From Branchiostoma floridae (lineage: Eukaryota > Chordata > Leptocardii > Amphioxiformes > Branchiostomatidae): a stretch of 64,000 nucleotides of DNA. Below are positions 9,901 to 59,076 of the stretch, piece by piece. The DNA lies in the NCBI RefSeq assembly GCF_000003815.2, contig NC_049995.1, positions 15,018,976 to 15,082,975 of the forward strand. Direction: 5' to 3'. How positions within the stretch are numbered: position 1 is the stretch's first letter; each line of letters starts with the position of its first letter. The translations under genes were made by a program, and so were the position numbers. Below the pieces are notes generated by a model. That model searched no databases. It was not told the DNA's origin and worked only from the letters and a program-made list of their open reading frames with translations.

Positions 9901-12900
9901 CCTGGAGAAGGGCGGGGCAGCGCCCTCCAACTCACCTGCCAAACCGGTCCAGAAGGTGGAGGAGGAGGATGATGATGATGACGATGATGATGATGATGAC
10001 ATCGACCTGTTTGGAAGTGACGACGTAAGAGGATATTTTTCTCTAATGTTATCAACTTTGTTCCTAAACCTTCAGATTTGTAACCCTACAAGAACTATCT
10101 ACAACCAAAAGTTGTCCCCATAACTTGCCAAGAAAACAGTTATCAAAACTGAAAGTTCCACTGCAATATCATTAAACAAGCCACTAGGGGATCTTATGAA
10201 AACCTACGGGGGCCACATACCAAATATACATGTACAATCCATCTTTGCATTCTCAAGCTATTGTGTTGACACACATACACAATTGCAGGAACACTCATGA
10301 AAATGCAGATATCTGTCTATACTTTACGTGTAGTTTAGTAGGCAGACAGAGAACTGATGTGACGAAGTTTTCATCATCATGTTGACTTGAGGACAACATT
10401 ATGAATACGAGAAATATAAAACAGTTCACTCTGGTTGACCATCACAAAGCATGTATTACACAATAATGAATCAGGGTACTGTATTTGCTCCATGTCACAC
10501 ATTACTGAGGCTGTTAATTCCTTCTCGCAGGAAGCAGATGCTGCAGCAGAGAAACTTAAAGAAGAAAGACTGAAGAAATATCAGGAAAAGAAGTCCAAAA
10601 GTGAGTCTGCCCAATTTGTAAATTTCAATCTTGATTTGACGACCTTCGTGACTATTAGAATCTGATAAGTATAATTGTTGATCTAATACAAAGGTAGATC
10701 TAAGGATTGAAATAACAATGTGTTTGTGCACTTATTACAGATAGTTGATTTTTTTGTTGTCTTGTTTTCAGAGCCAGCTCTTGTAGCAAAGTCTATGATC
10801 ATCCTGGACATCAAACCGGTGAGTTTTGGTTCACTTGATACTGTAATTCACTTTGTCTTCTCGGTACCAAACTTTCACGGTCTGAGAAAATTTAACTTGT
10901 TCTCGGAACTAAATGTTCACGGTGGCGGCAAGTGCACATGAAAAAGTATCTTGTATTATTTGTTATCAGTAATGATGCAGTCATCACATTGAAAACCGTG
11001 AACATAACAGTACAGTCAAACCTGTCTATAGCGGCCACTCAAGGGACCGGACAAATTTGGCCACTATAGACAGGTGGCCTCTGTATAGAGGTGGCAACTT
11101 GTAGATAAAATACCCAAGGGACCGACAAAAAGTGGCCACTATGGACAGGTGGCCCCTCTGTAGAGGTGGCCCCTAATACAGGTTTGACTGTACATTGAAA
11201 AAATCAGGAATAACAGTATGTAATTATTGTCAGTTTTGGTTCTCTTGATATGTAATTGTTGTTACTATCTCAGACACCTCTTTTTACATGTGATAATACA
11301 TTTGAATATTACACTAATGTTACAGCAATTTAATGATAAGTTCAACTTGCGAAATATTGTTGTCTTTATATGTACTGCAAGTATTTACTATTATTAATAT
11401 TGTCTTAATATATTACTCAATGTTAATGTGCAATTATAGTATACTCAAATAACAGGTTGTTTTTCTTCTTTTTCCCCCTGTACTGTTTCTTTCAATATGA
11501 TAGTGGGACGATGAAACAGGTCGGTTCTTTGGATTTTTTTATTGCTTTTGATAAAATAAACTCTTGTTCACAACCTCAATAAGACATGAAAAAAATGTGA
11601 ACATTTTCTTTGAATTGTGTTGGTTAACATAATGCTGAGCTTATCTGTGGAACCACAGTTTGTTATTGATGCAAACTTACAAGTTCTATATTTTGTTTTT
11701 TTACAGACATGGCTGAGGTTGAGAAGTGTGTTCGGTCAATAGCAACAGACGGACTCACATGGGGACAATGTAAGTACTCAGGATATCTGGATATATGCTG
11801 TATTGATGTAGCCTGTGTACCATCCGGATAGTAGTTCACTCCTATGTTTGCTTCTGCTATCCGAGTGGAGACTTGCGCCTTCAAACCGTTTTGTGGTAAC
11901 GTCAGTTAATGAGAAAATTAAGGAATGGGTTCTAGAGCGCTTGTTCGATGACAACAGGCCAAGCAAGCTTACGGAGGGCGCTTTGGGTGTTGGAACGCCA
12001 GTTTGAACGAGCTCATTCCTTACTTCGCTCATTTGTAGGGACCAATCAGCGCCTGCGTCCAAAATTTGGACGATTCCGGACGTTAAGATTATCCGCGTTC
12101 CCAGACGGAAACACAGAGAAGCGACTGCATATAGTGTATAATGAACGTCAGAGCTAGAAGCGACTGTATATAGTATATAATGAATGCCAGGGCGAACTAC
12201 TTTCCGGATGGTACCCAGGCTAGTATTTAAATGGCAATGAAGGTTAGACATCCAGGTAATAAGATACACCAAATAGCAATTGTTTACTAGCAGTTTTTTA
12301 AGCAACTGGATATGATTTTGGAAATGGTCAGACGTTTCAGACAACAGCTGTTATCTTTGGTCAGTGACATAATCACACCCACAACAGGTTAACTTGTCTT
12401 CCCTTTGCTTCCTATTGTACTACACTAGAAATTAGATGTTAGCTGCATTTTTTCTCCTTTTTTCTTGCAACCAAATTTGTCCCCCTGGCCTACAGCATTA
12501 AGAAATTCTAGGTCAGCTTTGTTATTATTGTAATAGAGCTTATTGTCATAGAGTTGGGATTTTTATGAATTGTTTGTTATTTTTGCTTTGTTGCAGCCAA
12601 ACTTGTACCTCTGGCTTATGGCATTAAAAAGCTCCAGATCAGCAGTGTGGTAGAAGATGAAAAAGTTGGAACAGACTTTCTGGAGGAGAAAATCACAGAG
12701 TTTGAAGACTATGTAAGTATAAGTAAAAGTTTGAGTAGAAAGGCTATTCAAGAAGAAGTGCCATTGGTTTTGTTTCTGACAGACTTTCAGTTACCTGAAA
12801 ATAACATAACTAATAAAAATCTAAGCAACAAATAGAAGATGACAAAGTGGGAACAGACTTCCTTGAGGAAAAGATCACAGAGTTTGAAGACTACGTAAGT

Positions 12901-13399
12901 TTATGCACATAGAGTCCGACAAAAAAATCAGACTACTGGAAGGAACCTTGAATATGACTGTATACAGTACATGTAACTGTTTGTTAGCCATTTATCCACC
13001 AGGTACATATTATATGTCCCCTCTACTGTGAAACTGAGTCAAGTTCTCTTGAAAAAGGTGGCATTCTGCCTCGACAAAAAGGAGCATTAATTGGTGGATA
13101 GTTAACCAGTGCTTAATAACTGCATCTCATGTATTCCATATCTGCCTTTTTTAGATTCAGGAATCCTAAGCAAATAATGATGTTTCCCAGTTTATAACTC
13201 TTTTAGCTTGAAGGCACCAAACAAAAACAAAGACTCGTTCATATCTACTCGAGATAGATCAGAGACTTATATATTTGTTTAGTGTGACAGCCAATATTTG
13301 TTTAACTTTTTCGTAACTTTAGTGCCCATGTTAAGATTTTAATATTGTTTTTGTTTATAGGTCCAAAGTGTTGACATCGCTGCCTTCAACAAGCTGTAA
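3913..13399 (+). CDS. EEF1D: Elongation factor 1-delta (eEF1B guanine-exchange subunit)
   Basis: Nucleotide-exchange subunit of the eEF1B complex, which recharges eEF1A with GTP in the cytoplasm. Eleven coding exons join in phase: 3913-4050, 6089-6292, 7692-7763, 9096-9189, 9849-10024, 10531-10600, 10772-10818, 11504-11519, 11707-11769, 12597-12712, 13361-13399. The order matches the family: N-terminal [24 protein letters not shown], heptad leucine-zipper segment, an acidic run of eleven Asp leading into IDLFGSDD, a Lys/Glu helix, then the GEF domain ([48 protein letters not shown]) ending [12 protein letters not shown]. Total is 344 aa, or 276 aa if the lysine-rich second exon is skipped, close to the roughly 280 aa of vertebrate eEF1-delta. 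A 16-nt microexon encodes WDDET. The start is the first ATG after the acceptor at 3899. Confidence 0.95.
4066..4142. repeat. 18-bp tandem repeat at the start of EEF1D intron 2
   Basis: About four and a half copies of GGGGTCAAACAGCACAGT follow the donor at 4051. The period of 18 keeps a frame open, but this is intronic. Confidence 0.85.
4292..4534. mobile_element. Foldback MITE, ~243 bp
   Basis: Inverted arms: AATAAGCACCTTCACTGTTTT at the left mirrors AAACAGTGAACATGCTTATT at the right, and CAAAGGTAAAGGCCCCTGA mirrors TCAGGGGCCTTAACCTTTG. No internal ORF. Confidence 0.7.
5409..5776. mobile_element. MITE, ~368 bp, with ~60-bp inverted termini
   Basis: Left AGGCCACACCGATTTAATTT and right AAATTAAATTGGTGTGGCCT are reverse complements, continuing inward through TTCTTGGTTCACGGATT and its complement. 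A related left-end fragment is at about 6869-6900. It lies in an EEF1D intron. Confidence 0.8.
6089..6292 (+). other. EEF1D: Lysine-rich cassette exon of EEF1D
   Basis: This 204-nt exon (68 codons, phase 0 at both ends) encodes a Lys/Glu/Ser-rich segment starting [20 protein letters not shown] and ending [12 protein letters not shown], before a GTAAGC donor. The standard vertebrate eEF1-delta short form has nothing like it at this place. Because both ends are phase 0 it could be skipped or included without a frame change. Inclusion in mRNA is inferred from the open frame and splice sites only. Confidence 0.6.
11011..11192. mobile_element. MITE, 182 bp, TACAGTCAAACCTGT termini
   Basis: Left TACAGTCAAACCTGT mirrors right ACAGGTTTGACTGTA. 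The body repeats GTGGCCACTAT-type blocks. A second, diverged element with the same ends is at 31511-31671. Confidence 0.8.
12471..12517 (+). pseudogene. Decayed copy of first half of EEF1D exon 10
   Basis: The sequence resembles the start of the true exon at 12597 ([15 protein letters not shown]). Here the acceptor TTGCAG has become TTGCAA and an in-frame TAG follows AAGAAATTC. It lies 126 bp upstream of the working exon and looks non-functional. Confidence 0.75.
12834..12894 (+). pseudogene. Copy of second half of EEF1D exon 10
   Basis: Encodes [20 protein letters not shown] with an intact GTAAGT donor, nearly identical to the end of the true exon (12651-12712). There is no pyrimidine tract upstream. 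The nearest AG (12833-12835), joined to the preceding exon, would create TAA immediately, so use as an alternative exon is unlikely. Confidence 0.75.
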
Positions 13400-13541: not shown

Positions 13542-13712
13542 GCTTTCATCCAAACACAGTCAGTTGTGATTATATTGCCAAATTTCAGCCGTCAAAATGG
13601 CCATACACAAATGAATTTGTCCATGAATTATTGTCTGGCAGACCTAAGGAAATGACCAACAAGAAAACAGGAATAGATTTTATAATTGTGTCATGTGCAG
13701 ACTGCATTACTT

Positions 13713-14316
13713 AAAGTTACGTCTATGTGTCCACATTAGGTTACGTCTATGTGTCCACATTAGGTTACGTCTATGTGACCATGTGTCCACATTAGGTTAC
13801 GTCTATGTGTCCACATTAGGTTACGTCTATGTGACCATGTGTCCACATTAGGTTACGTCTATGTGTCCACATTAGGTTACGTCTATGTGACCATGTGTCC
13901 ACATTAGGTTACGTCTATGTGACCATGTGTCCACATTAGGTTACATCTATGTGTCCACATTAGGTTACGTCTATGTGACCATGTGTCCACATTAGGTTAC
14001 GTCTATGTGACCATGTGTCCACATTAGGTTACGTCTATGTGACCATGTGTCCACATTAGGTTACGTCTATGTGACCATGTGTCCACATGTGACATTGTGT
14101 CCACATTAGGTTACATCTATGTGACCATGTGCCCACGTTAGGTTGTGACCATGTGCCCACGTTAGGTTACATCTATGTGACCATGTGCCCACGTTAGGTT
14201 ACATCTATGTGACCATGTGCCCAAATTAGGTTGTGACCATGTGCCCACGTTAGGTTACATCTATGTGACCATGTGCCCACGTTAGGTTACATCTATATGA
14301 CCATGTGTCCACATCA
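13713..14316. repeat. Minisatellite of interleaved 24- and 32-bp units
   Basis: Tandem copies of TTACGTCTATGTGTCCACAT+TAGG (24 bp) alternate with a 32-bp version that adds GACCATGT. The 3' part shifts to variants with CCCACGTTAGG. About 20 units follow directly after the EEF1D 3' end. Confidence 0.9.
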
Positions 14317-15850: not shown

Positions 15851-15919
15851 CTATGGGGTGTGTGGAGATCGCAGAATTCGGGGGGATCGCAGAAATAGGG
15901 AAATTGGCCATGCAGGGGA

Positions 15920-16076
15920 TAGTCTCCAAGCAGACCCTACGGTGCCTTAGAAATAGCTGGCAAGGCACCGGTGTCCGTTTGACTCCCTTAGCTGGCTATC
16001 TCCCTTTGGCCGGCTATACTCCTTTGCCAGCTTTGATACTATCTCTAAGGCACCGTTGGGTCTGCTTGGAGACTAG
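15920..16076. mobile_element. Foldback MITE with TCTCCAAGCAGACCCTAC arms
   Basis: TAGTCTCCAAGCAGACCCTA at the left mirrors the GGGTCTGCTTGGAGACTA right end, with further pairing through GGTGCCTTAG. A second member is at 27566-27716 inside the TRPV gene. Confidence 0.75.
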
Positions 16077-16109
16077 CCAGGGGAGTCACTCCATGCTAGG
16101 GTAAATGTT

Positions 16110-17539: not shown

Positions 17540-20500
17540 ATGAGAATATCTTCTGTAGTTCTAATGGAGAAAGAAAACACCCACTCTGTGGTAGAGGTTG
17601 GTGAAGGCCAATCGAACCCGGCCTTCGAAACGGACGATACCAACAGTCGCGAGGGGAGCGCTGTTCTGAGACGAAACAGTTCAAAAGTGAAAAGGTAAAA
17701 CCATGTTGTGATCAATTAAATAGGAGAAAAAAATTAACAGTTTTGTTTTTTCTAATGACTTAGGCGAAGTGAATGGCATGTACGTATTTTGTTCATACAT
17801 AAGTGTACACTGTAAACAGTATCACGTACGTTTTCTCAATTGATGGCGTTTCAGTACTATGTATTTCGTGGAAAATAAAATGGTGATTTTGCAAAATATT
17901 TCTTACAGTCAAAAAGGCCTCTCCAATGAAAGCGTTGGGCCGAGTGAAATCGAGATGCAGCCACAAGGTGTGCAGAAAGAAGATGGTAAACTTCAGTTTC
18001 CTACCTTAATTTTGATGCTATTTTAGTATAAGGTTTTGCATAGTCTGGTTTGACTGTCGAATCTTAAAATTTTGTATTCATTTTTTTCAGCGGGAAATTG
18101 TTTTCTAGCCTTAAAGAAGATTCGTGTTTGATGATATGGAATTGTAACAATATTGATGTTGATAATACAGTAATTACCTATAGTATACCTCAATTATACT
18201 ACATTTATCATATGATCAGCCAATGGCATAGACATATGAATGTGTTTACGTCTATTAAGTCCCGGTAATGAGATACGCCAAAAAGAAGAAGCTACTCAAG
18301 TAGTTGGACATGATTTAGGAAAATGTGGCTAGTTATCTTATACAAGATGTACCCGACGTGTCCCCCAGACCACGCAGGTTACCACCAGTCCCTCCACCTG
18401 GCCCTGCTGCGGGACAATGAGAAACTGGCTTTGGAGATTCTGGACCAACACGTGGACTGTGCTAACATGGTCTGCTGTGATAGGAACCACGACGGTAAAT
18501 ATGCCATTTTCGTAATTGTATGCATCCTATTTGTACTGTTAAGTTGTCAGTACATTTAAAACTCGTAAAGTGATGAGTGCCATTGGGAAATGCACATTAC
18601 ACGACTTTCCTCAAAATTGTAAAAATTGTAAAAATTGTAAAAATTCGGTTTGGGAGGTAAAAGGCAATGAAAGGAGGGGATTGGGCTCCGGTTCCCAATA
18701 CCGTGCAATGGATAACCACCCTCATGGTCTCACATTTATACTTCTAGCTCCAAAGAGCTTTGAAAGAGTTAATTTGATGGAAGTCATTGTGTATAATATA
18801 ACCATTGACAATGCAAGTCAAGTACACATTTACTTTGTTCATATCATAGGAGAGTCTCCGCTGCATCTGGCTATCTTTAACGGAAACTTCCGGCTGGTGC
18901 GAGAGTTGGTGAGCCGCGGAGCCGACCCGAACGCGCGCTGTACCGGGACAAGCTTCTCACAGGCACAGGGTGGGGAGGGGGGCGTGCTGTTCTACTACGG
19001 TAAGAAGGCATCGCTAACTACCTTAAAGATGTTTTCTTGTGTTGTTTTTCTACTTGTTACTGCATTGTATAAAAAGAAAATGCCCTTCAATGCGGGGATC
19101 GCTGAAGTTCAAAACATTCTAATGAACATATATAAAACCCCTTTTTGCAAGGTAGGTACAGTCGCTTACGTTACAGGTACTATTGAGAAAACCATAATTG
19201 AAGACAGAATTGACGGCTACTTCTACACACTCAGGTTATTGAAATTTCTAACATTTCCCCTTAGCTATATGGTAAAACAACATAACATTTCAACACTTTA
19301 ATTTACAGGAGAGTACGCCCTCTCTCTCGCTGCCCGACTCGGTATGGAACATATCGTCCGGTACCTGGTTGAAAATGGCGCGGAGTTGGACAACCAGGAC
19401 TCAAAAGGTAAGAATTTGCAAAAAGAACCATGTCCGTTTACCACTGTTTTCTAGCATTGTCCTAGAGCTCCGGATCAAACGATTTTCTTCATTTTGCATC
19501 TGCTCTTTTATCTGTTACAAGTCATTAAGAAATGTAGAAGAATATTCGAAGCCAACTTGGTTATTGCATGCAGTATATATTCTTAAGATATACATATGCA
19601 TGTGTGTAGATAACGTATCACATTCTATGTACTTACTTAAAATACGAAAGAACATGAGACTTAATCTTTGTTGATAGAAACAATAAAAATTAAAAACACG
19701 CAACAATAAAATACAAGTGATAATATTTACAGAACATGCCTGTAAATCACTGAACTATCCTGTATAAAGAAAACGGAAATGACTGAATAACTTTGGGATG
19801 GGGCCTTCTTTGCTTACATAACACAGGAAACACCGTTCTACACGTCTTGTCCATCATGGAACACGCGGACGCGGCCTGCTCCATGGCCAGGCTGGTGCTG
19901 AAGCTGGTGGAGGAACAACTGGAAATACTCAAGACGCAATACGACAACCAACAACTCAGTCTGGTACTAATCAAGTCTCATGTGCAATTGTTTGTTGCTC
20001 TTGGAGAAGAAATCTCTTTAATTTTTGCCCGGCGATCAGAATTCCAATGGTTAAGATTACTCCTGCCCTTCTTTATTTGTCCTAGATAAATCCACTGAAG
20101 TGATTATTGCAGGTACAAAAAACTTATGTCAGTGAAAGATTTCATCAGGTTGGAACAAACATAAGAGAACAAGGATTTGTTTAAACGCACAATCAAAATA
20201 TAAAATCATAGTCTACTACCAGTTAATATTGCTCCAAGGAAGGTGACAAGCAGTCGGCGAAACGTCGGTGGTGACTTTATGTTTTGGTTGTGAAGAAAGA
20301 ACCATATGGTAGTAGACTATGATTTTATATTTTGATTGTATGTTTCTGTTCAGGAGGAGTTTGTCCAGATTAGAGAGAACCTTGATCTGGAGAAGATCAC
20401 CAACAACGCTGGGCTCACTCCGGTCAAGCTGGCGGCGGATAGTGGCAATCTGGAGGTAGAGACATTCACACAGTAATTTTCTGTCACTACCTTCACAGAG

Positions 20501-23500
20501 GGTTTCGTGGTTATTAGCAAAGTACGTACTATGCCTGTCTGTCTGTCTGTCAGTCTGAGCCTGAAATAGAAATGGTGAGAACACTGTTGTTCTCGCCTGT
20601 CATATTATGAGCCATGAGTTTCATTTCAAAGCTAAGGAATGTGCCATTTGATGTAAGGGAAGCCTAGGCCAATTGATCATTGCAATTTATTCAATATTTA
20701 CAATATGGAGCCATTTCAAAGATTCTCCGACCTGCATTCCCTCGGATATGCAATGTCTTGTTATCCTCTCTTTTCTTTTTCATTGTGGAAATATGTTAAA
20801 TGGTTTCTATGCCACGCGAGGGAGGCTTGTCCTTGGCATCCTCACAACATCCTACTATTTGTCTTCAGATGTTCCAGGTTCTTCTTGACCCTAGCCGCAA
20901 GCAACACGTTCTGTGGAAGTACGGCCCCGTGTCCGAGTGTCTGTACGATCTGACCGACATCGACAGTACGCAGCGCGGGGCGTGTAACGGGTTACTGGAG
21001 ATTGTGGTCTACAGTAACGTCCGGAGATTCTACACTAACATCAAGGTAACTATGCAAAGTAAAAGGTACTAAAGAAACTGGTGATTATAGTGTACAGTAA
21101 CGTGCACAGGCTCTGCACTAACGCCAAGATAAAGAGCTCAAATTATAACTCAAGCAGCTAGCGATCGTGGTGTACAACAATGTACGGAGGTTCTACACTG
21201 ATATCAGGGTAAATATGCCAAATAATACTTTCTCAAGTAACTGGAGATTGTAGGGTGCAGCAGCGTGCACAGGTTCTGCACTAACGCCAAGGTAAAGAGC
21301 CCAAATTACAACTCAAGCAGCTAGAGATCGTGGTCTACAGTAATGTACGGAGGTTCTACACTAACATCAAGGTAACTATGCAAAGTAAAAGGTACTAAAG
21401 AAACTGGAGATTATAGTGTACAGTAACGTGCACAGGCTCTGCACTAACGCCAAGATAAAGAGCCCAAATTATAACTCAAGCAGCTAGAGATCGTGGTGTA
21501 CAACAATGTCCGGAGGTTCTACACTAACATCAAGGTAAGTACGCCAAATGTATGGTCAATACGCCAATGTACGGCTCGGTGTCCGAGTGTCTGTGCGACC
21601 TGACCGACATCGACAGTACTCAGCACGGGGCGCGTAACGGGCTACTGGAGATCGTGGTGTACAGCAACGTCCGGAGGTTCTACACTAACATCAAGGTAAC
21701 TATGCAAAGTAAAAGGTACTAAAGAAACTGGAGATTATAGTGTACAGTAACGTGCACAGGCTCTGCACTAACGCCAAGGTAAAGAGCCCAAATTATAACT
21801 CAAGCAGCTAGAGATCGTGGTGTACAACAATGTCCGGAGGGTCTACAGTAACATCAAGGTAAATATGCCAAATAATAGTTTCTCAAGTAACTGAAGATTG
21901 TAGTGTACAGCAACGTGCAAAGGTTCTGCACTAACATTAAGGTAAAGAGCTCAAATTATAACTCAAGCAGCTAGAGATCGTGGTCTACAGTAATGTACGG
22001 AGGTTCTACACTAACATCAAGGTAACTATGCAAAGTAAAAGGTACTAAAGAAACTGGAGATTATAGTGTACAGTAACGTGAACAGGCTCTGCACTAGCGC
22101 CAAGGTAAAGAGCCCAAATTATAACTCAAGCAGCTAGAGATCGTGGTGTACAACAATGTCCGGAGATTCTAGACTAACATCAAGGTAAGTACGCCATATG
22201 TACGGTCAATACGCCAAATGTACGGCCCCGTGTCCGAGTGTCTGTGCGACCTAACCGACATCGACAGTACACAGCGTGGGGCGTGTAACGGGCTACTGGA
22301 GATTGTGGTGCACAGTAATGTACGGAGGTTCTACACTAACATTAAGGTAAATACGGCAAACAACAGTTATTAAGCAACTGGACATCATTTTGAAAATAGC
22401 AAAGAATTTTAAGTAGCATCTACAAACTTTCGTCAGTATCCATGAGCAGATGTGTTGAAGAGCAGGTTTTATATCTTACCAATGAAGGTAAGTAGATGGA
22501 GACTAGATATAGCTGTTTGGTTAATCATTTTTTAAGTTATTTTTCTAGCAGAACTATTGGACTAGTTGCGGGTCACATTCGTCTTTGTTTGTGGCGACGT
22601 TAAGCCGGCGGTCCTTCAATCTTCATTCGGATTTCAAAGATTTTCAATGATTCAACCGAGGTGGGAGCGCTATAGGTTTCATGGGACCTTTGACCCATTA
22701 CTGACGTCCGTGCCCATTCGATCAAGCGCCGAATGTAGCGGGCCATTATACCTAAAGAACGCCTTAGAATTGGTCGAAAATGCACTTTTTATATTCAAAG
22801 TTTAACAAAAGTTGGATACTGTAATTATAAACTACCACGATGTTTGGACTCTTAATCTAAATTTGTTACTGTTGTACTTTCAGGCAGCAAAAATGGTCCA
22901 AACCACGCCTATTAAACAGCTGCTCAACAAGAAGTGGACGAGTTTCGTGCGCGGCTGGTTCCTGGCCTTCGCGCTGGCTTACCTCGTTCACATCATCGTC
23001 TTTACCATCTGCTGCTGGTACCGACCACTGCGGACTGTGGTAAGGGTGGTGAGCAACGGAACTGACAACGTCACGGTCACAGTGGTGGAGAAAGTACCTG
23101 TGTTTGTAAGTTTTACTAATTATTTCTGTCTGGTAGAAAGAGACAATGGTGTACTTAGGAGTTAGTTCACAGATAACGACATTCCTCATCACCGTTCCTC
23201 ATCATACATTTGGAAAAAGGCAACATTTTCCAGCAAATGTTTTTAATCACATTTTCCTGCCTTAGATACTATTGCTGTATGTATTGCTACTAGGACATAT
23301 TCATATACGTGGTGACCAGCCCCTACAGCCCTGTCCTACCATTTGCTACATTTATGTAATCAGACACCAAAGGGGGGTCTGATGACGACCGTATAGTCCA
23401 GGTCATTGGCCGTATTTCTTTAGAATAGAAAAAGAGGACAAGACAGGGCAAAAAAAATATGTTGCACTTCCTTGAATGTAAATATAGATAGTTACATTAT

Positions 23501-26500
23501 ACAAAACATTGTTGTCCTTTTAAGGGCCATATCATAGCGTAGATATTACCAGTAATCTCTGCGCTATTGTCGGGACTTTCTAGATAATATTAAAGTATGT
23601 TTCCCAGTCTGAAATGCAACGGTTTATCCGTGCAGGAGTCGTACAACACCCCGTGGCACCAGGCACGGCTTGCCGGGGAGATGTTCACTCTGTTGGTCGT
23701 ACTGCTCATCCTCTACGTCGAGGTATAACAATAATTTCCCTAGACTTTGTCCTGTATTGAGTACGGATAGTTTTCTTAACATTCTTCTTTACTCCGTAAA
23801 TAGTTTCATCAGGTTAATAAATACTAATATATTTAAGGCCTCGAAACACAACCAAAGTAGTACTCACTTCCAACGTTGCAATATCTGTCAGACACCATCA
23901 TCAGGGTCAGAATGGCTGGATCTCTTGAAACGTTGAAAGTGAGTACTACTCTTAATGTGTTTGAAGAACTTAACTGTACGATTCTTCTTTCCTTTTTATC
24001 ATATGATGCTAGCAATATTAGAAACCTTTTCGTACGTATGTCGACCGTCAATAGGCCGGTCTGGTTCATGTATCATTATCATCAGAACGCTACAGTGGCG
24101 TAGTGACGATCGACTACAAGTCTTATACAGGGATTTCTAATCGGCCGTCACGGTCTGATATACGTCTTCGTCATACTAACTCGGGTGCTGTGGATTTTAT
24201 TGATAGCTTATTCATATTATATATCTGACATAGGAGAATTCTTGTACACAACCAAAATTAAACTTACTTGCTTACGTTTCGGTGTCTATCAGACACCTTT
24301 CTCAGAGCTTCTGACTGGAGTTCTGCTTCTCGTCGCTATATGTAGCCGATGTAGGTGGCGCTTTTGCGACGAGAAGATTATCCCAAATGTGTCCAAGTTT
24401 GTATCCCCCCTTGTCCCGATTCATCACTGGGGCTGACTTTCTTATCCATACCGCCTCTTTAATTCACCTGAGTCGTCTGTTGTCTACCCTGTCTATGACT
24501 ATGGTCCCCTCCCAATCAATCTTGAATTTCAATTTTTTAAAAAGCTGTGAAAACCAAGTTTTACGTAAGTTTAATTTTGGTTGTGTACAAGAATCCTCCT
24601 ATATCCTATATTCTACCAACCTGATGAAATTATTTTCGGCATATTATATATCTGTTTTCAGATATCTGACATTATCCACGTGAAACCACAAGCTTTCGGG
24701 ATTCTCAACGGAGTCGGGAACGGACCTTTCCGTTTTCTGAGGTACTTGAAAATTATTTATTATTTGTTTGGAACTTGCCACTGCGGAGACCTTTTTCAGG
24801 CAGCTTCTACAAGTTTGCCTTCAAACGTTTTGAAATTTAGCATTTATCATCTTGAATCATAATTCAGCTGTATTTTCTGTAGTCTCTAATGGGTTTTCTA
24901 CTTCTCACAAACATTGTCAGATTCAGATTACCTAGAATTGTACAAATCTTTTGTCATAAGCGTAAGACATATTGCATGTAGTGCATAAAAGCTTCTTTGT
25001 GTTTGTACAACCCGTGTTGAAACTTATAACTTTCATTACAGCAGTTTGAAGTGAGCATATTGCTTTTGTGGTGGATTTTGTGTGTCTTTCAGACTAAGAC
25101 CCTTCTAGCGTTGAGTAAAAGGAAAGTGAGAGAGAAACGTTTTCTTCTATCCCAGCCTGTTATACAGTTGTGCGGTGCTGATTCTACTGGTATTCCGGTT
25201 GACGGACCACCCCCGGGAAGACGTGGTCATGTCCCTAGCCCTGGTGTTCGGCTGGATGTTACTGCTCTACTTCTCACGGGGCAGCGAAGCTCTGGGGCCG
25301 TTCACTGTCATTATCCAACAGGTACGCACATACATAACAAGCGTTTTCAGCTAGTGTAGACATAAGGACGTTGTCATGTCCCTGGCGTTGGTGTTCGGTT
25401 GGATATTATTCCTTTACTTCTCACTGGGTAGCGAAGCTCTGGGGTCGTACACTGTTATTATCCAACAGGTAAATATACCTTGCACGATAAGATAATGTAG
25501 TTGTGGACATAACAATACTCCTTGTCCTGGTGTTCAACGGGATGTAGAATTGACAAGGATGTGGCGATGCCCTTGGTGCTGAAGTTCAGCTTGATGTTTC
25601 TGTTGTGGTTTTCATGGGAAGGTAAACCTAGAAGAAGTACTCTCGTCTGACCCCCTTAACTCATCTGACAATACCTAATGCACCCTTCTCACTATGGGCA
25701 GCCCTTTCCTCCCACACTCGATAAATTGTAATATCTTTGACTATGTTTTCAATTTTATTAAAATGACCGGAAGATTTACTTAATCTGATTTGATTGGTAA
25801 TGCCAGCCTTTATGCGCTCTAGCCCGTTTATGTCGTTATTATTCTTGTTATTCTTATGTTGCCAAATGACTTAGTTTATGTTCATGTCATCTTAAGTTAT
25901 ACGTCTCGTTATAATCTCAATTTTGTTACTTTTGATTGTCATTGTATGTGATATACAGAGCAGAAGACCTCCATAAGCTCATTGTGAGCTTCTTGTCCCA
26001 TGCTCAAAAAAATGAATGCGAATAAAATAAAATAAGATAAATAATAAAGTCCTCTAATCATTCACTGTTATCACAGTACCCAACGGCTGTAGAAAAGGGA
26101 GTGGGTGGGTAGGTGGGGGGCTCTTGCTCTTCCATCGCTTCTAAAACAGGAGTCAAACTGAACCTGTAGATATAGCCAACACAGGTATTTAAGTACTTGT
26201 ACAATAATAGTAATTGCAGTTCATTGCACATGTGTCTGATGTTTCTACTATTTACTTCCTCTAGATCCTGGCCGGGGATATCGTTCGCTTCTTTGCCGTC
26301 TACCTTGTCTGTCTGCTGGGATACACGGCAGGTAGGTGATCGGATTATTCAACTGACTTATGTTGGTACCTTCCGATTGTATGATTGTATTGTACAATTC
26401 GTTATATCTGGTTTGGTTATGGCCGTATCTAATGAGAGTTTTGTCTTTCAGTCGGTCTCTCCCTTTCCAATGTTTTTACTTCCTAAAATAAAAGAAGCCT

Positions 26501-28633
26501 TAGTCAAACAGATTTACATTTAGGTACTCATTATCCCAAGGATACAACTGGAACATTGCATTTAGAAAGCAAACACGTTTCTTCTCAACTCCACGTTTCT
26601 AGCCTAACCACTAGGCCATCGACGCTCAAATATAACAGTAAAGGTACGGGTTTAGTGTTAAAATTAACGTTGTTCCTCTGTTTTTCTACAGCTTTTTATA
26701 TCACATATGAGCAAACGGAAGAATACATCGAAAAGTTCTGTGACTTTGAGCACACGATGCTGACCCTGTTCAAACTCACATTTGGGCATGTTATATTTCC
26801 TTTTCTATCTTTTCATCGTCTTGTTTTGCATTTCAGCGTTCTATATCACGTTTGAGCAGGCGGACGAGTACCTGGAGCAGTTCCGTGACTTTGAGCACAC
26901 GATGCTGACCCTCTTCAAGCTCACATTTGGGCATGTTATCTTTCCTTTTCGATCTTTTCATCGTCTTGTCTTGTTCTTCAGCGTTCTACATCACATTTGA
27001 GCAGGCTGACGAGTACCTCGAACAGTTCCGAGACTTTGAGCACACCATGCTGACCCTATTCAAACTGACCCTCGGCGTTGAAGACGTCACGGTTCTGGAC
27101 AAGGCCCCCAACCCCGCCATGGCGGTTGCCTTGTTTGTCAGCTTTCTCATCTTCTCCTTCCTCCTGATGACCAACCTGCTAATTGGCATGATGGGAGAGA
27201 CGCTGTCCAGGGTGTCCGAGGAGAAAAGGGATCTTTGGAAACTGCAAGTAGGTATTGGTTGCTTATTTAGCACAAGCACATGAATTTGATAAGCGCACCG
27301 TGTCGCCTATACTCTTCTCCATAACCCTTTTTCTTTTTCTTCCTTGCACGGGCTTGGTGGCCAAATTACATCTACTAAACTTAAGGCATATAATTTTCTA
27401 TTTCAAATTCATCTAATTTTTTTCACATTTTTCCTCAGCGTGCCTGCCTGATCCTCCTTTTCGAGCGGCGGCTGCCCAGCTGCCTGCGGAGGCCGGCAGG
27501 AGAGTACGTGGACGTGCCGGGGTTCGACCCTAACACCAGATACCTCAGGTAAGGGCTGGTACGTGCTAATCTCCAAGCAGATCCTACAGTCGCATAAGAT
27601 AGCTATCAAAAGCTGGCAGAGGAGTAAAACCGGCCTAGGAGTGTGTTTCGCTACTACAAGGCAAATGGATAGTTGGGCAGTATCTTATGCCATCGTAGGA
27701 TCTGCTTGGGGATCAGGTACATGCATTAGTTTGACCTTGCTCGTCAGTATCGTCAGTGGGTATTCTGAAAGACACAAAGAAAACATGATTCAGGAATTTG
27801 CACTTCAGTAAGATGTTGGATAAAGCCACTGGCAACTAGTACTATTAAAACAGTACTGATTAGATGTTTTGTTCCCATATCTAATTATTAAGACTTTGCG
27901 TAGTTTGTTCATTTTACCGATCAGTTTTATGTTTCTGTTTATTTTTATCTCAAACACATTATCTTAATACTAATCGACCTGTTGACTTGATTTCACCCAT
28001 TGTATATGAACAAATACGAATTGTGTTGGTGGTGGTAAAGATAACACGTCAATGCAGTCAATAAAAAAGGCATAGTATTACAACAAATCAATCAGTCAGT
28101 AGATTTATCCATATTTTTATCCCATGAATTATAGGGTAAAGATCCTGGGGGAGCTGGAGGCCCGCAGTGAGGTGAAGTTTAAGCGGGCTCCAGCCAGACA
28201 GGGGCCAAATAGTGGAACACTTATGTGATGCTAGAATCCACCAGTCAAATTAGTCTATCTATCAATATATCTGTTTATCTATAATCAATCTATTTTGATT
28301 TATTATTTAGGGTAAAGATCCTGGGGCGAACTGGAGGCGCGGAGTGAGGTGAAAATTAAGCGGGCCCCGGCCAGACAGCGCCCGTCTGATGGAACACTTA
28401 ATATGTGATGTCAGAACCTATCAATATATCTATTTACCTATAATCAATCTTGTGTTTATTCAACATATAGGGTGAAGATCCTGGGCGAGCTGGAGGCCCG
28501 CAGTGAGGTGAAGTTTAAACGGGCCCCGGCCAGACAGCGCCCGTCCTTCCAGCGGTCCGTAGTCGGCTCAACCAAATCAGCCAAGATGCGCGCCATGGTG
28601 GACTACTGGCGCAAACAAACTACCAGTCTATAA
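17540..28633 (+). CDS. TRPV-family cation channel
   Basis: Membrane cation channel with ankyrin repeats and six membrane segments. Sixteen exons join in phase: 17540-17694, 17909-17985, 18369-18494, 18850-18999, 19309-19407, 19827-19963, 20354-20455, 20869-21045, 22884-23105, 23636-23722, 24662-24741, 25168-25321, 26265-26331, 26982-27247, 27439-27548, 28471-28633 (723 aa). Exons 3-7 carry ankyrin motifs (YHQSLHLALLRDNEKLAL, SPLHLAIFNGNFRLVRELV, YALSLAARLGMEHIVRYLV). Exon 8 has the TRPV hallmark WKYGPVSECLYDLTDID. S1 is FVRGWFLAFALAYLVHIIVF; S5 is in exon 13. The pore helix is MLTLFKLTLGVEDVTVLD, and S6 leads to LLIGMMGETLSRVSEEKRDL with WKLQ, the TRP-box region. Start: first ATG of a 51-codon exon. 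The vanilloid subfamily is clear; which vertebrate TRPV it matches is not. Confidence 0.92.
18640..18725. repeat. Dispersed repeat fragment (GTTTGGGAGGTAAAAGGC type)
   Basis: Shares the block GTTTGGGAGGTAAAAGGCA with 52270-52290, where it follows a tRNA-like B box. Probably a SINE fragment in a TRPV intron. Confidence 0.45.
20189..20339. mobile_element. MITE, 151 bp, with ~33-bp near-perfect inverted termini
   Basis: ACAATCAAAATATAAAATCA at the left mirrors TGATTTTATATTTTGATTGT at the right, and pairing continues through AGTCTACTACC. It sits just before TRPV exon 7. Confidence 0.85.
21078..22346 (+). repeat. Array of 14 in-frame copies of the TRPV exon-8 tail
   Basis: Twelve 51-bp copies (17 codons, LEIVVYNNVRRFYTNIK or LEIIVYSNVHRLCTNAK type) start at 21078, 21158, 21241, 21321, 21404, 21484, 21728, 21808, 21891, 21971, 22054 and 22134. 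Two 126-bp copies (42 codons, from YGPVSEC/YGSVSEC) are at 21570-21695 and 22221-22346. Starts alternate 80 and 83 bp apart, and the long copies lie 650 and 651 bp after the matching point of true exon 8 (20920). Thirteen of 14 frames are open (the one at 22134 has TAG); 12 keep a GT donor, while those at 21078 and 21404 have AT. The copies beginning CTA are preceded by CAG, but pyrimidine tracts are absent, so splicing in is uncertain. Confidence 0.9.
23838..24620. mobile_element. Composite repeat with ACACAACCAAA termini
   Basis: The left end ACACAACCAAAGTAGTACTC and right end AATTTTGGTTGTGT are inverted. Inside are GTCAGACACCATCATCAGGG and TAGCCGATGTAGGTGGCGC, both shared with the shorter element at 34848-35066. 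It lies within a TRPV intron; short ORFs here are repeat by-products. Confidence 0.6.
25368..25469 (+). pseudogene. Partial copy of TRPV exon 12
   Basis: Repeats the second part of exon 12 (VVMSLALVFGW, then YFS.GSEALG and TVIIQQ) with an intact GTAAAT donor, but lacks the exon's first part and a convincing acceptor. A further decayed fragment follows at about 25525-25615. Confidence 0.75.
26692..26981 (+). repeat. Two extra copies of the TRPV pore-exon start (145-bp tandem units)
   Basis: Copies beginning at 26692 and 26837 precede the working exon at 26982, exactly 145 bp apart. Each includes a pyrimidine-rich tract, an AG acceptor and about 95 bp encoding AFYIT(Y/F)EQ...DFEHTMLTLFKLTFG. 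After that they return to intron-like sequence with no GT donor. Using either upstream acceptor would read into a stop (about 26853 or 26998), removing the selectivity filter and S6. Confidence 0.85.
27566..27716. mobile_element. Foldback MITE, second member of the TCTCCAAGCAG family
   Basis: TAATCTCCAAGCAGATCCTA mirrors TAGGATCTGCTTGGGGA at the right. It begins a few bases after the TRPV exon-15 donor. Confidence 0.75.
28135..28402 (+). repeat. Two upstream copies of the TRPV terminal exon
   Basis: Copies start after TAG acceptors at 28135 and 28311; the working exon is at 28471. The first is in frame (VKILGELEARSEVKFKRAPA) and ends at a TGA at 28226-28228, giving a 31-residue alternative C-terminus. 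The second carries a one-base insertion near its start and hits TGA early. Introns between copies share AATATATCTGTTTATCTATA-type sequence. Confidence 0.8.
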
Positions 28634-28985
28634 AAAAAAGTAGTATTCACCTGCAGTTCCAGAGCAAGCTGCTAGGGGGCCCAAACATACATCACCTCTT
28701 CCTTACATCACTACTGGCGCAAACAGACTACCAGTCTATAAAAAATTATTCCCCTGCAGTTCCAGAGCAAGCTGCTAGGGGGGCAAAACATCACATCTTC
28801 TTTACATCAATCCTGGCGCAAACAGACTACCAGTCTATAAAAAATTATTCACCTGCAGTTCCATAGCAAGCTGCTAGGGGCCCAAACATACATCACTTCT
28901 TCCTTACATCACCTCTGGCGCAAACAGACTACCAGTCTATAAAAATCCCCTGCAGTTCCAGAGCAAGCTGCTAGGGGGCCCAAAC
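28604..28985 (+). repeat. Tandem ~102-bp repeat that includes the TRPV stop-codon region
   Basis: TACTGGCGCAAACAAACTAC and the following CAGTCTATAA, the last codons of the channel, recur at about 28711, 28812 and 28914. Each is followed by CTGCAGTTCCAGAGCAAGCT. Only the first is in the reading frame; the rest are 3' UTR. Confidence 0.85.
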
Positions 28986-29240
28986 ATACACCAAGTCTTC
29001 CTTATATCACAAGCTACCTGCCACCAAAAAAAATCAAGACCATGGCATGTCTAGGTCAAAAGATACAAAAATAGAATGTCTGCTGCAGTACTAAGGTCAC
29101 ATACCAGGGGGCCCAAAATTGACATTGACCTACCCACATACCAAACATCATCGTAATCCATCCAGAGGTTCTAGCGTTGTGCTGACTACAAATATCCGGA
29201 AACACAAACACACAGACAGACACACCTAAAAAACTATACA
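28960..29240. repeat. Dispersed repeat (GCAGTTCCAGAGCAAGCTGC family)
   Basis: Shares blocks with 44757-44892 plus 45648-45830: GCAGTTCCAGA, AGGTCAAAA, CAGGGGGCCCAAAATTGAC, ATCATCGTAATC and CTACAAATATC followed by GGAAACACAAACAC. A weaker match is at about 10140-10235. Family unknown. It lies in the presumed TRPV 3' UTR; an AATAAA follows at 29347. Confidence 0.7.
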
Positions 29241-47300: not shown

Positions 47301-50300
47301 CAAGAGTTGAGAACTTTGATCAAACTGCTGTTAGCGTGGTCGAAAGGCTTGAAGAAAAGGATGACATTAAAACAACAGCCCAAGAGACAACCCAAATGGT
47401 TGAAACAATCACTCCAGATGTCGAAAAGGAGTCGAAAGAAAGGGTTACACCAGATAGCGTTGAGAAAGAAGAGGACAATACTGTGCCGGAGGCAATTATG
47501 ATAAAAGACACAACAGGGAAAGGAGTTGCCTTTGTGGAAAAGGAGGCAAAACCAGACGAAAGAGCTGAAGATGAGGAAACTGTTTCACGGGAAGGAAAAA
47601 CAGACGAGCCTGTGATCTGTATCTGTTATAAACCAACTCCAGTCACACTAGTTCTATCACCAGAGACTACATCAGAAGATGCCATCGAGCCCAAATCCGT
47701 GGCCACCACTGACACAACATCACCAGATAAAACAGTAGGAGATATTGCTGAAGGCACTGATAAAAAGCCAGACGAAACAGCACAACAACAAGAAGTAAAG
47801 GTGGTGGAAGAACAACCTGAGTCGTCTGTGGACGAAGAAGATGGGAAGCCAGTTGAACAGGCTGCAGATGACAATGTTCAGAAGGTAGAAAGCGTAGAAG
47901 TTTCCATGGAAACACCATTACGAGATGAAGAGGTTGAAATAATTGATGAGAAAAGAGAAGAAGTTGTCCAAGACATCAAAGAGAAGCCAGATCAGAAGGT
48001 TTCCAATGAGGAAACACCTCAGAACGAAGCAACTGAGAGGCCTGACCTGGACGTTAGTGACAAATCAGAGGAAAAGACTTCTTCTCAGACAACACATCCA
48101 GACCAAGCAGCTGACGAGGACGTCATAGACATTGTAGTGCAGTCGGTAGACGAAACAGTTGTTAAAGCTGCCCCAGCCGCGGGTGAGACGTTTGAAGAGA
48201 ATATTCATACCGAAGTCACACTACCAGATGAAACGATTAAAACAACTGTGCCATGTACTGTGGCTGCACCGGAAGAGATAGATGAAACAAATGTTTGGCC
48301 ACCACAAGAGATAACTATTCAAGAAGCTGTCACGAATCTTGAAACTGCAGTCATAACAGAATCGCCTACACAAGACAAAGACGATACTGCAGCAGACTTT
48401 GTCGCTGCAACAGACGAATTGGCTGCGTCCGAAATCCAGCGACGAGTGACAGATTCAGTTCAAGAAGTTTCCCCACAAATCGCTGAAAAGGTAGAAGATC
48501 AGGACGCTACAGCTACAAAAAAAGATGAGGAATCCTCCGAAATACCTCAGTCAGAGGGAACCACTCATGACACTGTGTTGGTAACGTCTGAAGACGTATA
48601 TGAGAAAGGTCATTCTGAAATATCTCCAACTAAGGAACCAGTTGAAGTAATTGTCTTAGACACTGTTGAAAAATTGGACGACACTACCCAGACGGAAACC
48701 CCACCGGCACTGCCAACTGGAGTAGCAGACACTGCTGAGAAAGTTACCTCCAAAACAGCACCAACGTTTGAACCTACACAGAAGGATGCCCCTGACATAG
48801 CTGAAGAGGTGAAGGTTATAACGGTAAAGATTACGAAGGAACCACAGACAGGCAAACCATTTAAGGCGGCTGCTTTACAAAGCAAAACGTATGCTCAGGC
48901 TGTCAAGGACAGTTTCCCCAAAGTTGAGAAGACCGTACAGGAAAACGGAGACATGTCAGATGTGGGCGAAACTCACAAGGAGACACCACCAAAAGACAAG
49001 TCGGTCGATGAGACTGTGCCAGAAAATGTGGAACTACCAAAAGAGGAAGTTACTGAAATGCTGCCATCAGAAAAAGTCGAGGAGAAAGTGTCAGAAAAGG
49101 AGGAGCTAACAAAAGAAGAAATCCACATCGATGCACCATCCGAAGACATAATCATTAAGACGATAGTAGAGCCACAAAGCGTGGAGTTTGGAGAAGAGAA
49201 AGTTCACACAGAAACTCCACCACCAGACAAGCCAGTTGAGAGGGTAGTATCAGAAAAGACGGAAGAACCTAAAATGGAAATCCACACTGAAACTCCACCA
49301 GAAGACAAAACGCCTGAAAACACTGTACAACAGCAACAAGTAGAAGTGGTGGAAGAAGAGAAAGAGGAGGTACAAGTCGTAGTACAAGAGAAAGTACAAA
49401 CAGAAACACTATCACCAGACAAGACAGTTGAGACGAAAGTATCAGAAAAGATGGAAGGACTGGAAGAGGAAGTCAGCATTGAAACGCCACCAGAAGACAA
49501 AACGGTAAAAGAGACTGTAAAGCCACAAGTATCAGAAGTGGTAGAAGAGACAATTCAGACAGAAGCTCCAGATAAGCCAGTTGACGAGAAAGTATCAGAA
49601 AAGGTTGAGGAAGCAAAAGAGGAAATCCACACTGAAGCACCACCAGAAGACAAAATAATTATGACGACTGTACAGCCACAAAACGTGGAAGTGGTAAAAG
49701 AGACAATTCACACAGAAACTCCACCACCAGACAAACCAGTTGACGAGAAAGTATCAGAAAAGGTGGAGGTACCAAAAGAGGAAATCCACACTGAAACACC
49801 ACCAGAAGACAAAACGGTGGAAACGACTGTACAGACACATAAGGTGGAGGTGTCAGAAGATACAGTTCACACAAAAACACAACCACCAGACAAGCCAGTT
49901 GAGAAGGTGTCAGAAACGGTGGAAGTAACAAAAGAGGAAGTCCACATTGAAGCGTCAACAGAAAACGACAAACCAGTTGAAAAGATTGTACAACCACAAC
50001 AAGTATCAGAAGTGTCAGAGAGGCAAGTTCATACAGAAACTACACAACCAGACAAACCAGTTGACGATAAAGTATCAGAAAAGGTGGAGATACCAAAAGA
50101 GGAAATCCACACTGAAACACCACCAGAAGACAAAACGGTGGAAACGACTGTACAGACACAAGAGGTGGAGGTGTCAGAAGATACAGTTCACACAGAAACT
50201 TCACCGCCCAAAAAAACAGTTGAGATAATAGTATCAGAAAAGAAGAAGGTAGTAAAAGAGGAAGTCCACACTGAAACGCCACTAGAAGACAGATCCGTTA

Positions 50301-55904: not shown

Positions 55905-56450
55905 TCAAGTCGCTAGGTCGCAGGGTTGACGCAGTGAGGTCGCGGCAAGATCGCAGAGTAAACGCAGTAAGGTCGCCGCCCTTGTGGAATAGGACTGCTA
56001 TCAATACGAGACATACGTGACCAGCAGCCATTGTAAAGGTTCGCAGACTTGTCGCAGTGAGATCGCAGGCTGGTCTTATCAAGGTCGTAGAGTAGTCAAA
56101 GCAAGGTTTCCGCCTTTGTGGAATGGGGCTGCTATTAGTACGAGTTGCATGTAACGTCCTCGTAAAAGGTCGCATACTGTTCGCGTAGTGAGGTCGCAGG
56201 CTGATCGTAGCAAGGTCGCAAATTAGTCGCACCAAGGTTTCCGCCTTTGTGGAATGGGGCTGCTATTAGTACGAGTTGGATGTGACCTGCCGTCCTCGTA
56301 AAAGGTCGCATACTGTTCGTAGTGAGGTCGCAGGCTGATCGTAGCAAGGTCACAGATTAGTCGCAGCAAGGTTTCCGCCTTTGTAGAATAGGACTGGTAT
56401 CAGTACGAGGTGCACGTGACCAGACGTCCTTGTATAAGGTCGCAAACGGT
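55905..56450. repeat. ~132-bp tandem repeat, about four copies
   Basis: The anchor CCGCC(C)TTTGTGGAAT recurs at about 55977, 56109, 56240 and 56374, together with AGGTCGCA and CAGTACGAG-type blocks. It lies in the presumed first intron of gene C. Confidence 0.85.
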
Positions 56451-56519
56451 GTATAGATCACGAGCTGAGTGGTTATCCACACATTAACGTCACATGCGCG
56501 GGCTCTATGGCACGTAGTC

Positions 56520-58830
56520 AGATGACAGACAGATGATACAAAAAGGAGTTACTCGATCAACTAAATGTAAATTTAGAAAATTTTCTAAAACCTCAAAAAA
56601 ATTCCAAAATCATATTCAGTCGCTTGACTTTGAAAAATGAAATAAAAAAGAAACTTTTCAGATTATTTGTAGTAAAGTGAGTGGTTAAACACACATTAAC
56701 GTCACATGCGCGGGCTCTATGGCACGTAGTCGGATGATAAACCTACCTACCTAGTCCCATGACCTCCATTTCTTTGGGGGGGGGGGGGGGGGTGGCAAGG
56801 CAGCCATGAAGATAGAGTTACTACGGCAAATAGCAGTTACTAAGCAACGGACTTTGATTTTAGAAAATATTCTAAAACCTCTAAAATTTGTCAAAATCAT
56901 ATCTAGTCGCTTGACATGACTTTGAAAAATAAAATAAAAATGAAAATTTGGAGAAATTTTCAAATTATTTGTTGTTAAGTGAGTGATTACCACACATTAA
57001 GGTCACATGCGCGGGCTCTACGGCAAATAGTCGGATGACATACGGATGATACAATAAGAAGTTACTCAAAGACAAGCAACTAGACATGGTTTTGGTAAGT
57101 ATTCCTAAACCTCTAATATATATATATTTAAACCATGTCTATTCGCGATGATTTCTTTAAATTTTCAAAAAGTCAATTTTGGAAAATTTTCGAATAATTT
57201 GTAGTTAAGTGTTAAGTGAGTGCTCACGATAGACAGATGGTACGAAAAGGAGTTACTTAGGCAAATGGATATGATTTTGGAAAATTTCCAAACTTCAAAA
57301 ATCATATCCAAACATATAATCCAAAATACAGTCACTCAAGCAACTCGACACGATTTTGGAAAAGTTCCAAAATGTTTCAAATTCCATATCCAAACATATC
57401 ATCCAAAAAGCAGTTCCTCAAACAACTGGATATAAGTTTAGAAAATTACCAAAATTTCCAAAAAATCATACAGTTGCTTGAGTAACTGTTTTCTGGCGTA
57501 TCTTATTACCCGGATGTCTAACCTTCAGGTCGATTTATCCTCTTAAGAGAGGTGACACTGACCTTCATCGACGAGACAGCTTACAATGTATTACCGCGGA
57601 TACGTTTGAACTAGAATAATGGAGCTGACTTAACTCCTTTACCAAGGGGTATTTTTATCCAAGACAATGACATTATAAACGGTCATTCACTCAGACACAC
57701 TGAAAGGTTATTTTTTGGTACTATATAATAGCGTTTGGGGGTGGTGTTCGTCGGAGAGTCGGGCAAATTTTTTCCAAGGCCCTCCCCTCCTATCAACTTT
57801 GAAATATATTCAAGACGTCAATACAATGTAGATCACTGCGCCCCCGTTTGGAAATGTCCTTTGCACCATACATACGTACCTTTGATACTGTTTTCTTTTT
57901 ATCACGAAGCAGATATGTCTAACCTTCATCGACGAAGCAGATAATCATTTATTACTGCGCAAATGCTTGAAGCCAGAAGAATTGAGTTAGCTCACTCACT
58001 TAGCAATGCATCATTATCATCCCAGACAATGTTTGGCGTACTCTTATTACCTGGATGTCTAACCTTCATCGACAAAACAATTAATCATTATTACCATGGT
58101 TACATTTGAACTAGAAAAATGGTGTTAGCTTGCGTCTTTGCCAATTGCATTGTCACCCCAGACAATGGCATCATGAAAGCCTCTATACACAGAAACGTCT
58201 TGCAGCAATGCACCAGTCTGAGTTATCACTAGCTTCGTATACATAGTTGACTGTCTGCTTATTAGACAAACAGCCAATACAATAAGCAGTAAGTCAAATA
58301 TATGAAAAAAATGTTTCCAAAATTTTCAAAAATCATATCTTATAGCGTATCTTATTACCTGCATAGACGTTATTTGACCTTCATTGACGAAACAGATCAT
58401 CGTGTATTACCGTGGTTACGTTTGACACAAGAAGAATTGAGTTAGCTCACTCCTTTACCAAGGGCATTGTCGCCCCAGACAATGACATTACAAACGGTCA
58501 ATCACTCAGACTAACTTTCATCACCGAAAGGATAACCGTTAATCACCTTGGATACGCTTGACGCCAGAAGAATGGGTTTAGCTCACTCATTTGCCAAGGG
58601 TATTGTGATCCCAGACAACGGCATTATAATCGGTCAATCACTCAAACACCTTCATAAACATAACGTCTGGCAGCAATACAACAGTCTGATTTTTTACTAG
58701 CTTGGTATACTTAGTCAGCTGACAAACGGATAATACAAAATGAGTTACTCAAGCAACTGGATATGATCTTGGAAATTTTCCAACTTTTACCAACACCATA
58801 ATTTAGTTGCTTAAAGCCAAAAGAATAGAG
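56520..58830. repeat. Repeat-dense intron: CAACTGGATATGATTTTGG family and a second ~200-bp repeat
   Basis: Many partial copies of the foldback family seen at 3697-3851 (about 56545, 56845, 57255, 57340, 57420, 57470, 58745). A second block, GGATGTCTAACCTTCATCGA...GACAATGGCATTATAAACGGTC, recurs about five times from 57500 on. A G-run of about 16 is at 56777. No coding exon recognised. Confidence 0.7.
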
Positions 58831-58852
58831 ACAGCTCATTCCCCTTCCCAAA

Positions 58853-59076
58853 TACTGTAAATCTGTAAGTTCGCGGGGATCTAATTTCGTAATTTCGCGG
58901 TAGCGGGGAAAAGGACTTTTCGCGGTGGATTTAAGTTCGCTGTAACACCATAGACTGCAATCTACTAGTAATATCATAATAGAAAAATGTTCGCGGTGGT
59001 TTTAAATTCGCGGTGAAGTGATCACCGCGAAAACCGCGAACATTAATCAACCGCGAACACTTTTACATTTACAGTA
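58853..59076. mobile_element. Non-autonomous DNA element, 224 bp, TACTGTAAAT termini
   Basis: TACTGTAAAT at the left mirrors ATTTACAGTA at the right. Internal TTCGCGGTGG and CCGCGAA blocks are shared with the 603-bp element at 14558-15160. Confidence 0.8.

Follow-up and report, generated by a model that had tools for sequence, protein, structure and literature searches.

A nested exon-boundary repeat in an amphioxus TRPV5/6-like gene, probably an elaborate mirage

Introduction

In the window, by which we mean the whole 64-kb stretch of Branchiostoma floridae DNA analysed here, the 3' end of one coding exon of a channel gene recurs time and again within the intron that follows it. This raises the question of how a satellite-like hierarchy can grow out of a coding exon, and of whether its copies are of any use to the gene that carries them. 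In amphioxus, tandem repeats across exon-intron boundaries are known as 'mirages' (PMC3087553; PMC3902484), which the parts of these accounts drawn upon here portray as harmless to splicing and as possible intron seeds. With a probability of roughly 85%, we take the array to be one of them: a minisatellite that arose in a TRPV5/6-like gene when the 3' end of an exon was duplicated in tandem together with its splice donor and ~30 bp of intron.

Results

The host gene

Fourteen exons with GT/AG borders are recognised from 18378 to 28633; joined in phase, they amount to 646 codons with no internal stop, and the reading frame stays open if the outer copies described below are used as exons. TRPV6 and TRPV5 are the best PDB matches for the surrounding ORF pieces (phmmer, with queries partly typed by hand), in agreement with the TRPV host that an earlier note on this DNA had recognised. 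The array exon, numbered 8 in the earlier note, is the sixth of the 14, the N-terminal exons lying outside the gene model; its last 126 nt constitute the first exon tail, and the array is contained entirely in the intron between this exon and the one encoding S1 (Table 1). A Pfam search with the array exon alone gave no match, and Rfam and tRNA scans of the window returned nothing. The pore exon (26982-27247) encodes FKLTLGVED, a pore that presumably looks less like the TRPV5/6 filters, though the whole protein is nearest to TRPV5/6.

Table 1. Coordinates of the array, its host gene and further boundary duplications in the window
Feature	Position	Strand	Remarks
eEF1B-like exon, donor-side copy	tail 12651-12721, copy 12833-12903	+	182 bp apart; mostly third-position differences; picked by skew
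Real array exon (end of ankyrin domain / pre-S1)	20869-21045	+	177 nt, phase 0-0; TRPV6 match runs through
Donor-side exon-boundary array	20995-22381	+	15 cores of exon end, splice donor and ~30 bp intron
First 650-bp higher-order block	20920-21569	+	93.8% identity with second block
Second higher-order block	21570-22220	+	opens with exon-tail copy 21570-21695; 12/126 nt unlike real tail
Third exon-tail copy	22221-22346	+	followed by donor GTAAAT and array end
Next exon (S1)	22884-23105	+	acceptor CTTTCAG; gene model
Real S3-S4 exon	25156-25321	+	gene model
Donor-side copy of S4 exon tail	25367-25471	+	147 bp downstream; decayed third copy ~25540-25620
Two acceptor-side copies, pore exon 5' part	26689-26978	+	145-bp unit; acceptors before 26692, 26837; real exon 26982-27247
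Two acceptor-side copies, C-terminal exon start	28130-28383	+	acceptors before 28135, 28311; real exon 28471-28633
Four ~99-bp copies of last codons, stop codon and 3' flank start	28606-29010	+	first copy is real
AMPK-CBM-like gene, acceptor-side copy	51560-51663 and 51723-51826	+	163 bp apart; picked by skew

Nested organisation of the array

Scanning both strands of the 64-kb window with a 52-nt probe of the exon end plus GTAA, with up to 18 mismatches allowed, recovers 15 copies with starts from 20998 to 22299, no match outside the array on the plus strand and 0 on the minus strand; the ~81-bp unit of exon 3' end and ~30 bp of intron that had been proposed is thus present 15 times. Start-to-start steps between cores alternate between 83 and 80 bp, with steps of 161 and 162 bp before the two long copies (21648, 22299), because the slot between is filled by the exon's own 5' part. 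The 80/83-bp alternation read earlier is confirmed by probe spacing, and the 163-bp dimer by TRF (163 bp, 7.3 copies; 326 bp, 3.7 copies); self-similarity of the array likewise returns spacings of 163, 324-326 and 650 bp. The 126-bp exon tails begin exactly where the earlier note had placed them, at 20920, 21570 and 22221, and the longer tail at every eighth step is real in that sense, the eighth slot holding exon sequence and not another 81-bp unit. Also upheld is the ~650-bp higher-order repeat of two periods plus a tail: the two blocks agree at 610 of 650 positions with 1 gap, and the three 126-nt tails (20920-21045, which is real, 21570-21695 and 22221-22346) are pairwise 90-91% identical. 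The limits claimed for the repeat were essentially right, and required only the small corrections to exon and array boundaries entered in Table 1.

Two diverged types of the basic ~81-bp monomer, A and B, make up the 163-bp dimer and then the 326- and 650-bp levels, with cores falling into the classes alpha (A1, A3, a1, a3), A2/a2, A4/a4, B1/B3/b1/b3, B2/b2 and the terminal T1. Mean identity climbs from 66% between adjacent A and B monomers to 83% between 163-bp neighbours, 89% at 326 bp and 94% between 650-bp partners, these being means copied by hand from the unit identity matrix, with ranges that overlap between levels. In a tree of the units, of whose 11 inner branches 3 have good support and 4 are open, the split of A from B is well supported and matching slots of the two blocks tend to cluster. 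The donor GT is retained in 13 of the 15 units, B1 and B3 reading ATAAAG; A3 and a3 are identical, and T1 shares no more than 83% identity with any of the other units.

Five boundary arrays in one gene

The same gene carries five boundary arrays, of which two are donor-side, two acceptor-side and one lies over the stop codon. Self-comparison at E 1e-6, with matches of 50 bp or more lying within 5 kb of each other, yields 4 clusters of local duplication within 18378-29010, all touching exon boundaries, and the modelled exon is the first copy in donor-side arrays and the last in acceptor-side ones. Computed on a hand-collapsed gene, the chance of such boundary placement at random is P ~0.0016 for five units, or 0.0075 with the C-terminal cluster counted once. 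Satellite-like order growing from a coding exon had been called unusual: the nested 81/163/326/650-bp order is real, but it is not unique, mirages being known and four more arrays occurring here.

Elsewhere in the window, two further boundary copies were picked by their skew (Table 1); the exon at 12651 is one that we take to be eEF1B-like. The region 35933-63332 contains several long paralogous exons starting near an NxFGTxNNYxEV-like motif, with AMPK1_CBM matches under the Pfam cut-off at two exon ends, and coding repeats of 153/159 bp occupy 48920-50838. Tandem or diverged local repeats are also found at 318-1041, 13674-14314 and 55915-59192, and two inverted repeats, each possibly a small transposon, at 24221-24267 / 24565-24611 (47 nt, 91% complementary) and 15917-15956 / 16039-16078 (40 nt, 93% complementary).

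Boundary repeats elsewhere in the assembly

Genome-wide searches covered the window's own assembly (513,431,437 bases in 431 contigs). A globin search of it gave nine matches, among which one locus (L029) has its exon 3' end copied at 157-bp spacing, comparable to the duplicated exon 2 3' boundary, likewise 157 bp, described for B. floridae BflGb9, and another (L033) has 158-bp acceptor-side units, comparable to the 150-160-bp units of 3' intron end and 5' exon 2 of BflGb6, both as given in the portion of PMC3087553 used here. Since globin repeats of the published lengths occur in the same assembly, the TRPV array is filed as a mirage. Copies of the matched exon were found in 2 of 42 loci scanned (9 globin, 30 Ion_trans, 3 TRP-like), both globin; the Ion_trans matches have long open frames and hence probably few introns. 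At a third globin locus (L032) a duplication (1725-1830 / 1842-1947, 117 bp apart) lies just 3' of the exon match, with GTAAGT in both copies.

That haplotypes or noisy reads were stacked tandemly during assembly seems to us very improbable. Lancelets are highly heterozygous, and the part of PMC12373286 consulted names overestimated duplication as a concern; yet the array has several classes among its 15 units, three exon tails and a nested spacing, and the assembly that holds it also holds the globin mirages. Further evidence against an artefact is that divergence between units reaches 46%, that the array maps to a single location in the assembly (1 candidate scored), and that three tails ~90% identical pairwise exceed what two haplotypes alone would give.

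The mirage assignment itself agrees with what is seen at the locus: a tandem repeat over an exon-intron boundary, an amphioxus host, and splice signals in many, not all, of the units. As expected of boundary units that escape homogenisation, T1 is divergent, though the first unit, A1, is unlike it in being 95% identical to A3, a1 and a3. In place of the long homogeneous array of a higher-order satellite, there are two 650-bp blocks and a tail.

Splicing potential of the copies

Scored with donor and acceptor matrices built from the gene's own few sites, the first donor reaches 8.9, and of the 14 others 11 reach at least 8.8. For the 12 short units, the best in-frame, stop-free AG within 40 bp upstream scores -0.3, as against 2.4-9.0 for real acceptors, and with such poor acceptors mini-exons of 51/54 nt from these units are not supported. 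An internal AG scores 6.2 and 5.8 in exon tails 2 and 3 (5.2 for the same AG in the real exon) and would yield 72-nt in-frame exons, so that splicing into the array is possible.

These scores bear on an explanation that we regard as unlikely, namely that copies are used, either spliced in as 72-nt or 51/54-nt in-frame mini-exons or activated by somatic or germline deletion within the array, with selection keeping the protein. The acceptors of the short units are poor, and the acceptor-side copies, inspected by eye, show no donor on their inner edge. In the cited part of PMC3087553, somatic instability reported at the Adh3 mirage lends this explanation some support; RT-PCR there suggested regular splicing, which tells against use.

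Codon-position skew of the copies

Nine intronic copies, drawn from three genes and six arrays and none of them chosen by skew, show 93 differences from the real exon, 67 of them at third codon positions (P 6e-7), relative to an expected share of 47% that is our own estimate for a neutral copy beside a real exon changing only synonymously, with a quarter of sites synonymous. Copies within one array are non-independent; with one copy per array, the count is 42 of 56 (P 1.5e-5). The nine-copy test sets aside the 12 short units, S4 copy 3, C-terminal copy 2, three 27-nt stop-side copies and globin copy L033-2, together with the arrays at 12651 and 51560, which were picked by skew among 173 dependent tandem pairs; counting all 29, with the two skew-picked copies among them, gives 175 of 263. 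Third positions account for 63 of 109 differences in the 12 short units, 33 of 70 in the six B units and 8 of 19 in S4 copy 3. CpG decay was rejected as the cause of the skew, 62 of 86 differences still being third-position once those touching CpG are removed (two skew-picked arrays included). Judged from the sequences, the excess appears to surpass expectation for a free copy, and other copies are broken (a4 by a stop, C-terminal copy 2 by a 1-nt frameshift, S4 copy 3 by decay) or near neutral.

Use of the copies would fit those in which the exon side is kept and the intron side is not. In the S4 copy 20 of 30 ungapped intron-side bases are changed and most of the protein is kept, as in both skew-picked cases (14 of 27 for the eEF1-like and 18 of 30 for the AMPK-CBM-like one), and copies with such near-random intron sides look old and constrained. 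Pore copy 2 has 9 differences in 81 nt, all third-position and synonymous with uncertain junction codons dropped, or 13 synonymous and 1 nonsynonymous with these counted; the respective numbers are 5 and 0 in 66 nt (6 and 1 in 69 nt) for C-terminal copy 1 and 10 and 2 for tail 3 compared with the real tail. Other comparisons speak against use, beginning with the broken copies: B1 and B2 are separated by 1 synonymous and 6 nonsynonymous differences, and A2 and a2 by 2 and 5. Moreover, when the null model is a copy evolving neutrally next to a constrained exon, the S4 copy by itself (9 synonymous, 5 nonsynonymous) gives a non-significant P of 0.061 and tail 2 a weak P of 0.043. If many boundary copies were under protein-level selection while lying in introns, they would have to be translated at least sometimes, through splicing or once a somatic deletion in the array had brought a copy into the functional position, with the arrays acting as spare or alternative ends of exons; this broader proposal, too, we hold to be improbable.

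A second pattern is found where intron sides match or nearly do. Tail 2 and the L033 copy show 0 of 30 intron-side differences and pore copy 2 shows 5 of 30; units A1, A3 and a1 vary at 6 third positions and at 0 of 35 intron positions; and the nearest copy at L033 has 4 third-position differences in 99 nt with 0 of 70 in the intron. Such an excess of synonymous over intron differences suggests that diverged functional sequences have exchanged parts of exons. It is possible, if doubtful, that unequal crossing-over or conversion between diverged functional haplotypes joined alleles, so that copies were born with mostly synonymous allelic differences, and violations of the four-gamete test, in 13 of 21 site pairs across nine A-type units, are consistent with this. 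However, 0.27-0.68 of synonymous sites differ in the tails and in the pore, S4 and C-terminal copies, a level higher than we would expect between alleles, and no paralogue was seen that could have been the donor. Conversion from a close TRPV paralogue within this assembly was likewise rejected, because 20 of 23 genome matches fall in this gene and the remaining three reach 31-44% identity (of 84 candidates, 68 were scored). Use of the copies is compatible with a mirage origin and competes with haplotype exchange over the skew, and no single model considered accounts for both the old, constrained copies and the exchange-like ones.

Discussion

Under the mirage reading, the first duplication may have been seeded where a short exon stretch, ACTGGAGAT (at 22295 in the last unit), resembles ACTGGACAT in the intron, 82 bp away at 22377; a decayed partial unit would look the same. 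Unequal exchange would then have expanded the array, and at the 650-bp level a junction at a shared GTACGG could have fused the A4 intron tail to mid-exon, which would be why each block has a longer exon tail. The array would be excised from the RNA along with the intron, because the short units are without a good acceptor and only the exon of the first donor has a real one.

The array is probably a by-product of repeat turnover. The coding parts of several copies nonetheless drift unlike free intron DNA, with a third-position skew that does not fit a purely neutral by-product. If this skew is general, either the copies are in use or they record functional alleles that had diverged. What deserves pursuit is that some copies conserve their protein. 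One gene with five mirages, one of them nested, also provides a natural series from duplication to higher-order repeat.

In higher-order repeats of the alpha-satellite type, diverged monomers lie within a more alike higher-order unit, an arrangement shared by the TRPV array, which differs from them in having just two blocks and in being intragenic and exon-derived. Intron gain by tandem duplication, as described for potato RdRp in the part of PMC4974935 consulted, also involves tandem duplication inside a gene; here, by contrast, copies remain in an existing intron and no new intron is demonstrated. A unique satellite-like invention is ruled out by the mirages already described in PMC3087553. 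A literature search with little coverage of subscription journals turned up neither a description of a mirage in a TRPV gene nor a study of selection acting on mirage copies. As presented in the portions of PMC3087553 and PMC3902484 drawn upon, the mirages of Adh3, Gb6 and Gb9, and the further ones in TnC and PGBD5 (PMC3902484), are like the TRPV array minisatellite-like boundary duplications with splice signals in an otherwise intact gene. The TRPV case differs from them in its 15 units, its nested 81/163/326/650-bp order and its five arrays per gene, one over the stop codon, and neither higher-order structure nor third-position skew is mentioned in those portions. In summary, the kind is already known and the array is an unusually elaborate member of it, the less ordinary feature being that several such boundary copies keep protein-coding sequence.
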